From a virus, in IMG/VR virus record IMGVR_UViG_3300035005_000002, positions 1 to 46,406 of that record: a DNA stretch of 46,406 bases. One strand, written 5' to 3'. A program made the position numbers and the translations under genes. This document shows positions 4,535 to 38,541 of this stretch, piece after piece. The notes below the pieces were generated by a model. The model was not told where the DNA came from, made no database searches, and saw nothing but the letters and a program-made list of their open reading frames with translations. The stretch's first letter is position 1. Each line of letters opens with the position of its first letter.

Positions 4535-5050
4535 ATGGTACACGAGTTATTAGGTAACCATAAAGCATCTTCAGAATGGTATACCCCTGAAGACATTTGG
4601 GGTAGAATCCGGCTTATTTTTAACGAGGATCACGTGTATGACCCTTGTCCCGCAGGGGGTTTGGCAGGTTTAGAAGCAGATTGGAGTTTATTTAACAATA
4701 TTTACGTAAACCCACCTACCCCCGCAGCACCTTGGGCTTTAAAAGCACTTCAGACACATAAAGACAATCCTGAGGTTGACATCATATTTGCTTGTTTCTC
4801 TGAAGCTGTTCTATGGCAAGTTAACGAACTTCAAGACCATTTAGTCTGCTGGGTACGTAAAAGGATTAGCTGGATAGACGGCAACCAGACCGTTAAGGGT
4901 AAACCTAACTCTAACTATCTGAAACCTGCGAAGTCACCTAGAAACTATAATGCCTTTGTTTGCTTAACCAATAACCCTGAGATACGTCACAGGTTTCTTT
5001 TCCGTTTCCAAGACCTTGGTACTATTAGAACATCTATACCCTTAAACTAA
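4535..5050 (+). CDS. Phage DNA N6-adenine methyltransferase, Dam-like
   Basis: The pattern matches the phage Dam family (Pfam Dam/PF05869): SSEWYTPEDIWGRI at residues 11-24, DPCPAGG near 35-41, YVNPPTPAAPWALKAL near 55-70. NPPT replaces the DPPY catalytic motif, and NPPx is common in this family. The length (171 aa) is normal. It would transfer a methyl group from SAM to adenine in DNA, probably against host restriction. No restriction partner is visible nearby. It is a rightward early gene embedded among leftward tail genes, and its stop overlaps the frameshift extension of the tail chaperone coming from the other side. Confidence 0.8.
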   Translation: MVHELLGNHKASSEWYTPEDIWGRIRLIFNEDHVYDPCPAGGLAGLEADWSLFNNIYVNPPTPAAPWALKALQTHKDNPEVDIIFACFSEAVLWQVNELQDHLVCWVRKRISWIDGNQTVKGKPNSNYLKPAKSPRNYNAFVCLTNNPEIRHRFLFRFQDLGTIRTSIPLN

Positions 5051-5534: not shown

Positions 5535-5541
5535 AATAGGG

Positions 5542-5570
5542 TTGACACTCAGTGTACACTCCGTTAATAT
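5542..5570 (+). promoter_or_regulatory. Promoter with class II operator
   Basis: TTGACA (5542-5547), 17-bp spacer, TAATAT (5565-5570). The spacer holds AGTGTACACT (5551-5560), the core of the second operator type, flanked by partial symmetry. It faces the 54-aa gene at 5601. Confidence 0.7.
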
Positions 5571-6407: not shown

Positions 6408-6419
6408 TTGTTTATAGGG

Positions 6420-6448
6420 TTGACACTGAGTGTACACTCAGTTATAAT
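6420..6448 (+). promoter_or_regulatory. Consensus promoter with perfect class II operator
   Basis: TTGACA (6420-6425), 17-bp spacer, TATAAT (6443-6448). The spacer is the perfect 18-bp palindrome ACTGAGTGTACACTCAGT (6425-6442), so a bound dimer would cover the whole core promoter. It drives the antirepressor-like gene. Confidence 0.85.
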
Positions 6449-6476: not shown

Positions 6477-7211
6477 ATGGCTTATCAATCAGGCACTCAA
6501 GTGATTAAAGGCGAGCGTGCAGTTATTGAAGTAGCTGGCAAGCCTATTGAAGTGTTCATGTTACCGAACGGAGATTATGTTTACTCTCAAGCTTCTGCCT
6601 GTGAATCCATTGGCAAAGACAGAAATGACTGGTCTAACTATCTACGCAGTAATAAGGGTTCCACGGGTCGTCACCCCTCGGCTGAAACCCCTATTAATAC
6701 GTTAGAGGATTTTGCAGAACCCCCACGGGCTAAGGGTTCCACGGGTCGTCACCAGGGTACTCTGGTATCAATCGGGCGGACTAGAGTAAAGGCGATTAAT
6801 GATGTACAAGTAGCAGCTTACTGGTCTTGGAAGTCTAAGAACGGTAGCGTAGAAGCTGAGGCACTGTTAACCGCATTAGTATCCGAGGCATTAGCCAGAC
6901 GTGCTGACGATGCTTTTGGAATCAAAAAGGCTGAGGCAACCTATGAGCAACAGACAACTACTTTGAGACTAGACCTAATAGAACACGCCAAAGCGCAATA
7001 TATGGCAGGGAATAAAGATGAGGTGTATTCCACACTCAGTGAGACTGAAGAGGAAATAAGTCTACTTATGGTTACTATAGAGCGCCTAAAGTTATCCATA
7101 GACGATCTGGATAACTGGTTGATGCGTCATAAAGACTCAGAGAAGCTAGAGATAGCAGAAAATAGACTAAAAGCACTACTAGGTGTGCCAGTTAGTAAAG
7201 TGGCACAATAG
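6477..7211 (+). CDS. Antirepressor-like DNA-binding protein of a cyanobacterial type
   Basis: The 244-residue product has an N-terminal domain (about residues 15-60) of the kind found in phage and cyanobacterial antirepressor-like proteins (VFMLPNGDYVYSQASACESI...WSNYLR), a middle AAYWSWKSKNGSVEAEALL and LARRADDAFG block (about 120-155), and a coiled-coil C-terminus. Residues 60-95 contain the heptapeptide KGSTGRH twice, encoded by a 23-bp exact repeat (6653-6675 and 6731-6753), an in-frame 78-bp duplication or insertion. The perfect class II operator in its promoter suggests it is a regulator, perhaps of itself. A distant relative lies at 36492. The family is named from pattern memory only. 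Confidence 0.55.
   Translation: MAYQSGTQVIKGERAVIEVAGKPIEVFMLPNGDYVYSQASACESIGKDRNDWSNYLRSNKGSTGRHPSAETPINTLEDFAEPPRAKGSTGRHQGTLVSIGRTRVKAINDVQVAAYWSWKSKNGSVEAEALLTALVSEALARRADDAFGIKKAEATYEQQTTTLRLDLIEHAKAQYMAGNKDEVYSTLSETEEEISLLMVTIERLKLSIDDLDNWLMRHKDSEKLEIAENRLKALLGVPVSKVAQ
6653..6753 (+). repeat. In-frame 23-bp direct repeat inside the antirepressor-like gene
   Basis: The 23-base unit TAAGGGTTCC...GTCGTCACC occurs at 6653-6675 and 6731-6753, 78 bases apart, so both copies are read in the same frame (KGSTGRH). It looks like a recent insertion or tandem duplication. Confidence 0.85.
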
Positions 7212-19737: not shown

Positions 19738-20127
19738 TTACGGTTTTTTAATATAATCTGCTAGTCTTTTTATACGCCATGGGTCATCCTTAAGCATACC
19801 CAGCGCTACGTTACACTGGGTACATAAAATACCTCTAACTACCCCCGTGGTGTGGCAATGATCTATAACAGTATTCTTAGCTTTCCCTGGTGCAGGTATA
19901 TCATCTTTACACACGTCACACTTACACCCTTGGGCTTCCCATAACTTAACTGCTGTGTATAAAGTTATACCATACCTAGCTCGTCTCGCTCGGCACTTAG
20001 CCCGTTCCGAGTCACAGAGTTTACAAGTATATCTATGCCCTGATAACCTATTAACGTCAGTCGAGAAGTCTTCTAGAGGTTTAATAACCTGACATTTGGC
20101 GCACTTTCGGATTGACTGAATACTCAT
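19738..20127 (-). CDS. Recombination endonuclease VII / HNH nuclease
   Basis: Zinc-binding Cys pairs at residues 9/12, 35/38, 70/73 and 102/105 and the catalytic block VIDHCHTTGVVRGILC (about 87-102) are typical of the phage endonuclease VII family, which cuts branched DNA. The 129-residue length is normal. Part of the C-terminal coding sequence (GCGCTGGGTATGCTTAAGG) recurs at 37520-37538, where a related fragment remains. In this family some members are free-standing homing-type nucleases. Confidence 0.88.
   Translation of the reverse strand: MSIQSIRKCAKCQVIKPLEDFSTDVNRLSGHRYTCKLCDSERAKCRARRARYGITLYTAVKLWEAQGCKCDVCKDDIPAPGKAKNTVIDHCHTTGVVRGILCTQCNVALGMLKDDPWRIKRLADYIKKP
20112..20122 (+). 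promoter_or_regulatory. Late-gene motif upstream of 136-aa gene
   Basis: TTGACTGAATA, the same form as before the fibre gene at 40895, about 25 bases before ATG 20146. Confidence 0.45.
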
Positions 20128-36491: not shown

Positions 36492-37094
36492 TTACATGTC
36501 ATAAATAGCTTGGTTAACCCTCTGGACGCTTAAGGGTAACAATGACTCACGACGTGCCCTGGCTTCGCCCCAGATACGCTCTACCTCATCCATGTACTCT
36601 TTTACGCCCTGGGGATCTAACGAGTCAACTAAGGCATTCTTGCGGTCGATTACGGGTTGTAGTTCTTCACAGGTTAACTCGGAGAACTCGATCTCACGCG
36701 CTAGGTCTAAAGCCTGCCTTAGGTTAGCTCTGGTGCCCTCATGTTGCGCTGCGGTAACTTGAGTACCATTAGTTTCCTTAATGGTACGCTCTAAGTCGGC
36801 TCTAAAGGTAGCTGAGTAAAGGTTAGTTACCCGCTTATCCCCTAGGCTAACCCGATAGTCTAGGAAGTCACCAATGACGGATACAGGGTAAGCAGTAGCA
36901 GGTACTTGACGTTTACCAACCCTAACAGAGTGCCCCGCAGTTCTGCAGTGGTTATTATACCAGTTTTTGGCACTCTGACGTGAGATACCTAACCCATTGG
37001 CAAAGCCCGTTAGGGTTGTATAAGCCTCACCGTCAATAATGAAACCGTCTACGGGAATACCAGCGAACTCGAAAGATGAATGTAAATAAGCCAT
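36492..37094 (-). CDS. Second antirepressor-like/DNA-binding protein
   Basis: The 200-residue protein contains a DNA-binding-like N-terminus (EAYTTLTGFANGLGISRQSAKNWYNNH at about residues 24-50, split here into pattern TGFANGLGISRQSAKNWYNN) and a helical C-terminus (ANLRQALDLAREIEFSELTC). It is of the same general type as the 244-aa protein at 6477, with MAY start and similar layout, but not closely similar. Its promoter region carries an operator (37134-37154) next to the repeat modules. A regulator role is inferred. Confidence 0.5.
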   Translation of the reverse strand: MAYLHSSFEFAGIPVDGFIIDGEAYTTLTGFANGLGISRQSAKNWYNNHCRTAGHSVRVGKRQVPATAYPVSVIGDFLDYRVSLGDKRVTNLYSATFRADLERTIKETNGTQVTAAQHEGTRANLRQALDLAREIEFSELTCEELQPVIDRKNALVDSLDPQGVKEYMDEVERIWGEARARRESLLPLSVQRVNQAIYDM

Positions 37095-37133
37095 TGTTAG
37101 AACCTTTTCTTTTGACTCCTTTAGTCTAACTTA

Positions 37134-37154
37134 GGTTTACCATAAGTGTCAACC
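37134..37154 (-). promoter_or_regulatory. Class I operator upstream of second regulator-like gene
   Basis: GGTTTAC-N7-GTCAACC. Minus strand TTGACA is present; the -10 candidate (TTAGAC after 17 bp) is weak. It is also the start of the first 56-bp header repeat. Confidence 0.6.
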
Positions 37155-37185
37155 CTATGTTGGTTTTTAACGTATTATGGTCATT

Positions 37186-37267
37186 CCAAAGTGGTTAAAT
37201 GTTAAGCGTAAATAAGCCTTTAACCTTTGACTGGTAAGCATCCCAAAGTGGTTAAATGTTAAGCGTA
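37186..37267. repeat. Direct repeat pair A
   Basis: 25-bp exact repeat (CCAAAGTGG...GTTAAGCGTA) at 37186-37210 and 37243-37267, start to start 57 bases. Confidence 0.85.
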
Positions 37268-37274
37268 TAACTTA

Positions 37275-37295
37275 AGTTAACCTAACCTGTCAACC
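37275..37295 (-). promoter_or_regulatory. Class I operator, module 2
   Basis: AGTTAAC-N7-GTCAACC. Minus strand TTGACA with TATACG after 18 bp, pointing into repeat pair A. Confidence 0.55.
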
Positions 37296-37321
37296 CTATG
37301 TTATTTCTTTGACGTATTTTA

Positions 37322-37411
37322 GGCATTCCAACGTTACTCACTTGAACGTGTAAAACCTAGGTTAACCCTTGAGTAGTGGGCATTCCAACGTTACTCACTT
37401 GAACGTGTAAA
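37322..37411. repeat. Direct repeat pair B
   Basis: 33-bp exact repeat (GGCATTCCAACG...AACGTGTAAA) at 37322-37354 and 37379-37411, start to start 57 bases. Confidence 0.85.
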
Positions 37412-37459
37412 CCATATCACTCGTCGGCTGGCTGACGCTTAGGTTAAGCTAGTCAATAG

Positions 37460-37480
37460 TTTTGACCATAAGTGTCAACC
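37460..37480 (-). promoter_or_regulatory. Class I operator, module 3
   Basis: TTTTGAC-N7-GTCAACC. Minus strand TTGACA is present but no good -10. Confidence 0.5.
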
Positions 37481-37517
37481 CTATGTTGGTTTTTAACGTA
37501 TTATGGTCATTCCAAAG

Positions 37518-37570
37518 TGGCGCTGGGTATGCTTAAGGTTGACCCAAATAACGTCTCAAAACTCTTGAGA
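37518..37570 (+). pseudogene. Remnant of an endonuclease VII-like gene
   Basis: The stretch encodes KVALGMLKVDPNNVSKLL, matching the NVALGMLKDDPWRIKRLA end of the endonuclease VII at 19738. At DNA level GCGCTGGGTATGCTTAAGG is identical, and the match extends TGACCC after one substitution. No catalytic region remains. Confidence 0.5.
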
Positions 37571-37608
37571 GTCCCTTCTGGCAACGTTTTCAGGTTGACC
37601 CAAATAAC
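37536..37608. repeat. Direct repeat pair C
   Basis: AGGTTGACCCAAATAAC at 37536-37552 and 37592-37608, start to start 56 bases; it partly lies within the endonuclease VII remnant. Confidence 0.75.
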
Positions 37609-37624
37609 TGGAAGCACTTTGACG

Positions 37625-37654
37625 CTTAAGTTTACTCTAACTGTAAATCTTAAG
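37625..37654. promoter_or_regulatory. Operator-like inverted repeat, module 4 end
   Basis: CTTAAG-T-TTAC-N7-GTAAA-T-CTTAAG, extended symmetry with the class I core altered to TTTACA/GTAAAC. It has no good -10. Confidence 0.5.
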
Positions 37655-37787
37655 AAAACATAAAACTGTTCAGTTATTGTCAGTTGATTTTCATAGTTCG
37701 ACATTATCGAACAATGTGGCTAAACCTAGGTACAGTAGGGGACACAACGAGTCAAACGAATGCGTCAAGATAGATTTCAGAGAGCTA

Positions 37788-37814
37788 CAGGTACTAGACT
37801 ACCTGAGGCTTTTT
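37788..37814 (+). terminator. Terminator before class II promoter
   Basis: CAGGTA and TACCTG form a stem with a 6-base loop, followed by GAGGCTTTTTC. Confidence 0.55.
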
Positions 37815-37857
37815 CTAAAATCTACTATCTCAGCATAGGTATTTATACTCACCGGAT

Positions 37858-37886
37858 TTAGCACTGAGTGTACACTTTGACTAATA
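37858..37886 (+). promoter_or_regulatory. Promoter with class II operator for fibre/baseplate operon
   Basis: TTAGCA-like -35, 18-bp spacer, TAATAT. ACTGAGTGTACACT (37863-37876) forms the class II operator. It overlaps the palindrome at 37876-37895. Confidence 0.55.
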
Positions 37887-37895
37887 TTAGTCAAA
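37876..37895. promoter_or_regulatory. 20-bp perfect palindrome over the -10 box
   Basis: TTTGACTAATATTAGTCAAA is fully symmetric and contains the late motif core (TTGACTAATA) in both directions. Confidence 0.7.
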
Positions 37896-37900
37896 GGGAA

Positions 37901-37910
37901 TGACTAAGTA
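37901..37910 (+). promoter_or_regulatory. Late-gene motif upstream of 207-aa gene
   Basis: TGACTAAGTA, seven bases before ATG 37918. Confidence 0.5.
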
Positions 37911-37917
37911 GCTATAA

Positions 37918-38541
37918 ATGAGACTATCAACTTGGAGGCAATCAATAGTAGACTGGGTAGCCCAGAAAGTACAGATTGACACCTATGAACTTAGGAACCC
38001 AGAGGTAGTTGGGGAAACGGCGGGGTTTTTCCCGCCACTAAGAAACATTAAACACTATGATGGCGGGGAAGAGTCGGAAGGGCAGCCGACAGCCCAAGCT
38101 ACCCAAGAGATATACATAACTACTAGATACCCTAGGGACACCCCATATGCAGAACTACCATTAGCGACTACAGAGGGTGTCTACTCGTCACTGTGCCAGG
38201 GTTTACTCAAAGATGCTCAAGGGATAGCCGACCTCATAGACCTTTGGATTAACCCTAGTGACCAACCTATACAAGTTTCTGAAGTAGGGGACGATTATGG
38301 GGATTGGTTGGTAACGATGGTCATCTATGTAGTCATTAAGTGGTTACCAGAACCTGAACCGGGCTTCGGCTTCTCAGGTTACACGATTAATAAAATAGCA
38401 TTCAACCTGTACCGGGCTAAGCTAGATAACTTTAATGACAATACCCTAGTAGCTACCTTTGGCGGAGACCGTGAACTACTAACCGCAGAAGATGACTATG
38501 TATTTACAGAACCACCCCCTGACGACTTTTTAGTAGAATGA
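37918..38541 (+). CDS. Tail or baseplate structural protein, unknown (207 aa)
   Basis: First gene of the rightward fibre operon. The product (MRLSTWRQSIVDWVAQKVQI...) has a helical start, a middle segment with many Pro/Tyr (TTRYPRDTPYAELPLATTEG) and an acidic end (EPPPDDFLVE). It overlaps the fibre gene by four bases. It could be a tail terminator or connector, the usual small protein at the sheath side, but no family signature is clear. Confidence 0.5.
   Translation: MRLSTWRQSIVDWVAQKVQIDTYELRNPEVVGETAGFFPPLRNIKHYDGGEESEGQPTAQATQEIYITTRYPRDTPYAELPLATTEGVYSSLCQGLLKDAQGIADLIDLWINPSDQPIQVSEVGDDYGDWLVTMVIYVVIKWLPEPEPGFGFSGYTINKIAFNLYRAKLDNFNDNTLVATFGGDRELLTAEDDYVFTEPPPDDFLVE

Follow-up and report, generated by a model that had tools for sequence, protein, structure and literature searches.

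The region described here occupies part of an intergenic stretch (37095 to 37917) in a virus record of 46.4 kb, the whole of which constitutes the window that was analyzed. On one side lies a minus-strand gene for a protein of 200 amino acids, and on the other a plus-strand gene starting at 37918, whose relative in another viral contig immediately precedes the sheath gene. The stretch contains four promoter-like headers, designated A to D, and a pair of exact direct repeats sits between each two successive headers (Table 1). Elsewhere the window encodes a tail sheath protein, a baseplate J protein, a portal, a terminase, a DNA polymerase, a primase, and an integrase, with the primase and polymerase genes located at 25 to 32 kb, and the phage is contractile-tailed and probably temperate. 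The tail sheath protein shows 39% identity to that of the Leptolyngbya phage Lbo402-yong5 and about 34% identity to those of Nostoc and Anabaena phages. The sheath thus marks a contractile-tailed phage, and a filamentous cyanobacterium is the most likely host.

Table 1. Features of the intergenic region and of the adjacent minus-strand gene
Feature	Position	Strand	Remarks
Regulator-like gene, 200 aa (P0001)	36492-37094	minus	target of all headers
Header A, predicted operator/promoter	37131-37156	minus	TTGACA 37147-37152, 18-nt spacer, TAGACT 37123-37128; PWM 31.7 bits
56-bp block of header A	37139-37194	minus	identical to C block
Repeat A, near-gene copy	37186-37210	minus	25 nt exact
Linker A	37211-37242	minus	resembles translation starts of 6477-7211 and 36492-37094
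Repeat A, far copy	37243-37267	minus	57 nt from near copy
Header B, predicted operator/promoter	37272-37297	minus	TTGACA 37288-37293, 18-nt spacer, TATACG 37264-37269; PWM 25.1 bits
Repeat B, near-gene copy	37322-37354	minus	33 nt exact
Repeat B, far copy	37379-37411	minus	57 nt from near copy
Header C, predicted operator	37457-37482	minus	good -35 37473-37478, no recognizable -10; PWM 18.9 bits
56-bp block of header C	37465-37520	minus	identical to A block
Endonuclease VII-like stretch in module C	37516-37548	plus	28/33 nt identical to gene end 19780-19812 (minus)
Repeat C, near-gene copy	37536-37552	minus	17 nt exact
Repeat C, far copy	37592-37608	minus	56 nt from near copy
Header D, degenerate fourth copy	37626-37651	minus	TTTACA 37642-37647; PWM 15.5 bits

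Headers and the phage promoter cassette

On the minus strand, the headers read as a sigma70-type promoter of the phage with a built-in predicted operator, GGGTTGAC-N7-GTYAACCC. This element, TAGGGTTGACA with GTTAAGGTTAACC and a -10 sequence after it, precedes many genes of the phage. The predicted operator is an inverted repeat lying over the -35 element and the spacer, where repressor operators are usually located, and a repressor may be expected to bind there. A PWM built from 11 promoters of the phage, all of them outside the region, found 42 sites above 9 bits in the window, compared with 0 to 2 in shuffled sequences, and headers A to D were among the 42. The initial annotation had assigned an operator to each header, and the fit of the headers to a motif trained on other promoters of the phage bears out these predicted operators. 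The cassette recurs at about 20 places, and 15 of the 22 cassettes listed, header A included, lie 52 to 64 nt before a start codon. Examples are found at positions 567, 4183, 5767, 7210, 18888, 19707, 25396, 29568, and 33102, and the distance to the start codon is nearly constant, at about 57 nt. The strong sites, found on both strands, are inverted repeats that overlap promoters, and the cassette would define a phage regulon under a putative repressor.

A second operator type, a TGAGTGTACACTCA-like palindrome, is present at 5538 to 5563, 6416 to 6441, and 37863 to 37876. It replaces the usual operator in two promoters, one of which is the promoter of gene 6477-7211, a paralogue of gene 36492-37094, and the third copy precedes the plus-strand gene 37918. 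Adjoining this third copy, just upstream of gene 37918, is a perfect 18-bp palindrome, TTGACTAATATTAGTCAA (37877 to 37894). In a distantly related viral contig (L011), a dense intergenic array of TGTGCCAAAGTTGGCGCA-like palindromes occupies 4590 to 4755, some 570 nt upstream of the gene related to 37918, and this array is operator-like and similarly placed, with a different sequence.

The functional reading direction of the modules is the minus strand, and all four headers face gene 36492-37094, at distances from its start codon of 58 nt (A), 199 nt (B), 384 nt (C), and 553 nt (D). Header A is the only one of the four at the 52- to 64-nt distance typical of the cassette. The PWM scores drop from A to D with growing distance from the gene, and the -10 elements are acceptable in headers A and B and absent in C and D. 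Two of the headers had been described as identical over 56 bp, which was confirmed for A and C, and header B has a AACATAGGGTTGACA core in common with both, read on the minus strand. The earlier count of three headers was correct for A, B, and C but missed the degenerate header D, whose alignment scores to headers A and B were each reached by 2 of 1,000 shuffles. Judged from the sequence, header A is the predicted standard promoter/operator of gene 36492-37094 itself, and headers B, C, and D are, on the same grounds, copies of it placed further upstream and progressively decayed. Headers A and B are probably live as promoter/operator, with C and D probably degenerate. The identity of headers A and C over 56 bp means that decay with distance is not the full history and that exchange between copies must have happened. 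An inverted repeat flanking the headers (CCATAA/TTATGG in A and C, CCTAA/TTAGG in B), picked out by eye, was dropped, being out of register between copies.

Repeat pairs and kinship of the modules

The three repeat pairs reported by the initial annotation, with a spacing of 56 to 57 nt behind related headers, were all recovered, exact over 25, 33, and 17 nt. Only four exact direct repeats of at least 15 nt at a distance of 20 to 100 nt exist in the whole window, three of them being pairs A to C, and the same scan of 20 window shuffles gave 0. The fourth is a 23-nt exact repeat, with copies 78 nt apart (6653 to 6753), inside the paralogue 6477-7211. It encodes KGSTGRH twice, in a segment predicted with low confidence in the protein model.

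The repeats do differ in sequence between modules, as had been claimed, but they are not wholly unrelated. Repeats A and B have the common ends TTTAC-N17-KTTGGRATG, with 20 of 31 positions identical (P = 0.0002, in a register picked by eye), and their 17-nt cores show no significant match to each other (P of 0.13 to 0.59). Neither core had another match in the phage genome or in 50,697 phage records, and a comparison of the repeats with 390 cyanobacterial genomes gave no convincing match, only weak short ones with E values of at least 2.5e-4. Searches for DNA relatives found none in phage records, with weak matches in one search only, one of them to a recombination endonuclease gene, and only short weak matches in the 390 cyanobacterial genomes; a scan of viral contigs with the header and operator patterns likewise found no relative of the region. 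A small open reading frame through module A (VIRLTFNHFGM...KAYLRLTFNHFGM) has both repeats in frame, 57 nt being 19 codons. A coding role for it was rejected because the module B equivalent has a stop and the spacing in module C is 56 nt.

The alignment of modules A and B, which spans linker and repeat, has a score of 49.5, reached by 0 of 300 shuffles, and the linkers are related to one another (P = 0.0024 for A and B; P = 0.005 for B and C), although these P values are optimistic because the alignment registers were partly picked by eye. Linker A aligns to the translation start of gene 6477-7211 as AGACAAAGGTTAAATCATGGCTTAT against AGTCAAAGGTTAAA----GGCTTAT. The match of linker A to the translation-start region was reached by 0 of 500 shuffles for 6477-7211 and by 8 of 500 for 36492-37094, in a similarity that is partial and whose registers were likewise partly picked by eye, and there was no match between linker A and six other leaders of the phage. 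Since linker A resembles gene starts and the modules are interrelated, the modules look like tandem copies of a promoter, leader, and gene start. As far as sequence comparison goes, they are diverged duplicates of one unit and not separate designs.

Module C in addition contains a stretch resembling the end of the phage's own endonuclease VII gene (19738 to 20127; Pfam Endonuclease_7, E = 1.8e-21), a fragment that is a sign of recombination. An open frame over module C (37472 to 37663) reads ...VALGMLKVDPNNVSKLL..., resembling the end of endonuclease VII, and is probably a gene fragment rather than a gene.

The regulator-like gene

The gene that all headers face had been proposed as a possible regulator, and weak fold matches of its predicted product agree with a regulator-like protein. 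The product gave no convincing match in Pfam, NCBIfam, or PHROG. It is a distant member (hhalign E = 1.9e-6) of a cyanobacterial protein family found in 43 of 291 genomes, sometimes as neighboring copies, and within the phage the paralogue 6477-7211 is the better member of that family. Sequence-level relatives of gene 36492-37094 were absent from viral and genome contigs, phages, and plasmids, with weak ones in cyanobacterial genomes, and no ladder of repeat pairs was found upstream of 17 cellular relatives. The AlphaFold models had a pLDDT of about 75. The model of the 36492-37094 product matched APSES and Ski/Dachshund DNA-binding domains, the best PDB match being the Mbp1 APSES domain (probability 0.91, E = 0.065). 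Most named viral fold matches of the paralogue were KilA-N, Bro-N, and repressor-domain proteins, with E values of at least 0.0025 for the named matches. Only one BFVD match had an E value below 0.001. The likeness to KilA-N and Bro-N regulators is one of fold only, seen in the matches of the paralogue, and no sequence match to the family models was found. The 36492-37094 product is most likely a DNA-binding regulator; the fold matches, each of them weak, are consistent.

Interpretation of the duplicated units

The identity of the cassette, its orientation, its duplication, and the kinship of the modules are visible in the DNA itself. The explanation that we favor, and consider moderately probable, is a recombination-prone ladder of duplicated promoter/operator units, D-C-B-A, that tightly controls the regulator gene 36492-37094. 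A sigma70 promoter with a repressor operator over its -35 element and spacer would have undergone tandem duplication along with a portion of the leader and gene start. Header A would then be the gene's own promoter and B a second plausible promoter reading into the gene, with C and D decayed or operator-only. Binding of a putative phage repressor to A and B, and perhaps also to C, would silence the gene tightly and by degrees, and once repression was lifted, A and B could both fire into the gene, giving stronger or staged expression. The repeat copies might be kept identical by short-range recombination, or because a DNA-binding protein, perhaps the one that the gene itself encodes, uses both copies as sites. 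Short-range gene conversion would explain the identity within pairs, for which selection for paired sites is an alternative, and the equal spacing of the pairs follows if a pair was already present in the ancestral unit. Our inferences concern repressor binding, the activity of the promoters, cooperativity, and whatever role the pairs may have. A further reading, that the pairs are elements whose ends are conserved and whose core can be exchanged, actively kept identical at 56 to 57 nt such that specificity can be swapped while the architecture is kept, strikes us as quite improbable; one core would in that case be drawn partly from another phage gene.

It is rather unlikely, in our judgment, that the region is a mere scar, in which header A is the sole functional part and the rest consists of neutral leftovers of tandem duplication, slippage, and template switching. 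The decay of the headers with distance, the missing -10 elements of C and D, the scrap of the endonuclease VII gene in module C, and the absence of an RNA structure signal would all suit a scar, but about 560 bp is a lot of non-coding DNA for a phage with a compact genome, the three pairs are still identical over 17 to 33 nt with clean edges, and header B retains a good promoter and operator. The fixed spacing in all three modules could instead be functional if the repeat pairs were binding sites, set at a constant distance ahead of every promoter, for a specific protein, either the gene's own KilA-N/Bro-N-like product or an activator. In modules A and B alike, the repeats do lie about 30 nt upstream of their own -35 element, with conserved ends around variable cores and a similarity that falls sharply at the repeat edges. 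A single protein, however, should read one core, and the cores of A and B are unmatched; 57 bp amounts to a non-integral 5.4 helical turns; module C is offset and consists in part of endonuclease VII sequence; and such repeats are absent upstream of the 17 relatives of the gene. We regard this role of the pairs as unlikely.

With three or four operators stacked at one place, titration of the phage repressor, one of the roles raised by the initial annotation, is possible. It is a weaker explanation than the plain promoter/operator reading because header A appears to be the gene's own standard promoter/operator and the others copies upstream of it. Moreover, of these operators only A and B have scores typical of real ones, and about ten others elsewhere in the genome score equally well or better, so the extra titration capacity would be small, and that the operators serve mainly as decoys is very unlikely. 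The other suggested roles are not supported. A family of regulatory or decoy RNAs finds no support in the folding of the modules, which is no better than that of shuffles (z-scores of -1.4 to 1.3 for all modules and both strands), or in an Rfam search of the region, which gave no match; the z-score of -3.05 for the whole 531-nt plus strand (40 shuffles) is of the kind expected from long near-complementary operator copies. A replication origin is not borne out, there being no DnaA box in the region and no adjacent initiator gene. The region is, as had been stated, neither an ordinary iteron array, since there is no common iteron and the neighboring gene is unlike an initiator, nor a CRISPR, since the repeat changes from module to module. 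Cyanophage N-1 carries a CRISPR array of five 37-bp DR5-type repeats with a leader (PMC4916379). The present region resembles that array in having direct repeats with spacers in a cyanophage, and there is overlap with CRISPR arrays in the lengths of its repeats and spacers, but its repeat changes with every pair, and repeats A to C are without the ATTGAAAC/G end of DR5-type cyanobacterial CRISPRs (PMC4916379). A transcript running through module C on the minus strand would be complementary to about 30 nt of the endonuclease VII mRNA. Even so, given the lack of structure beyond shuffles and of matches to the cores of A and B in the databases searched, small or antisense RNAs, including one from module C against endonuclease VII mRNA, or mini-CRISPR arrays are highly improbable products of the modules.

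The ladder of promoter/operator units invites comparison with known immunity regions. In the OR and OL regions of lambda, several operators and promoters are stacked by a regulator gene, with a divergent repressor/Cro pair. The stacking of several operators and promoters beside a regulator-like gene is similar here, but whole promoter/leader duplicates face one way, with repeat pairs between them, and there is no divergent repressor/Cro pair. Cluster A mycobacteriophages have dispersed operators and stoperators, a short repressor-site motif repeated across a temperate phage genome and in some cases located inside promoters; the stoperators are mostly asymmetric, promoter independent, and in one orientation, and they block elongation (PMC6550527). 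The phage described here likewise has one short predicted repressor-site motif repeated many times, some copies lying in promoters, but nearly every strong site is a promoter-overlapping inverted repeat.

At heart, the region appears from its sequence to be a duplicated promoter/operator control region, in which the identity of repeats at a fixed distance is a puzzling detail. To our knowledge, gene control in such cyanophages has been little described, and for a group of them the analysis supplies a clear operator motif and a promoter cassette. It shows how the control region of a phage can expand when a whole promoter/operator/leader unit is copied in tandem, and if the pairs are maintained by selection, they would represent a paired site of a new kind, one whose specificity can change.
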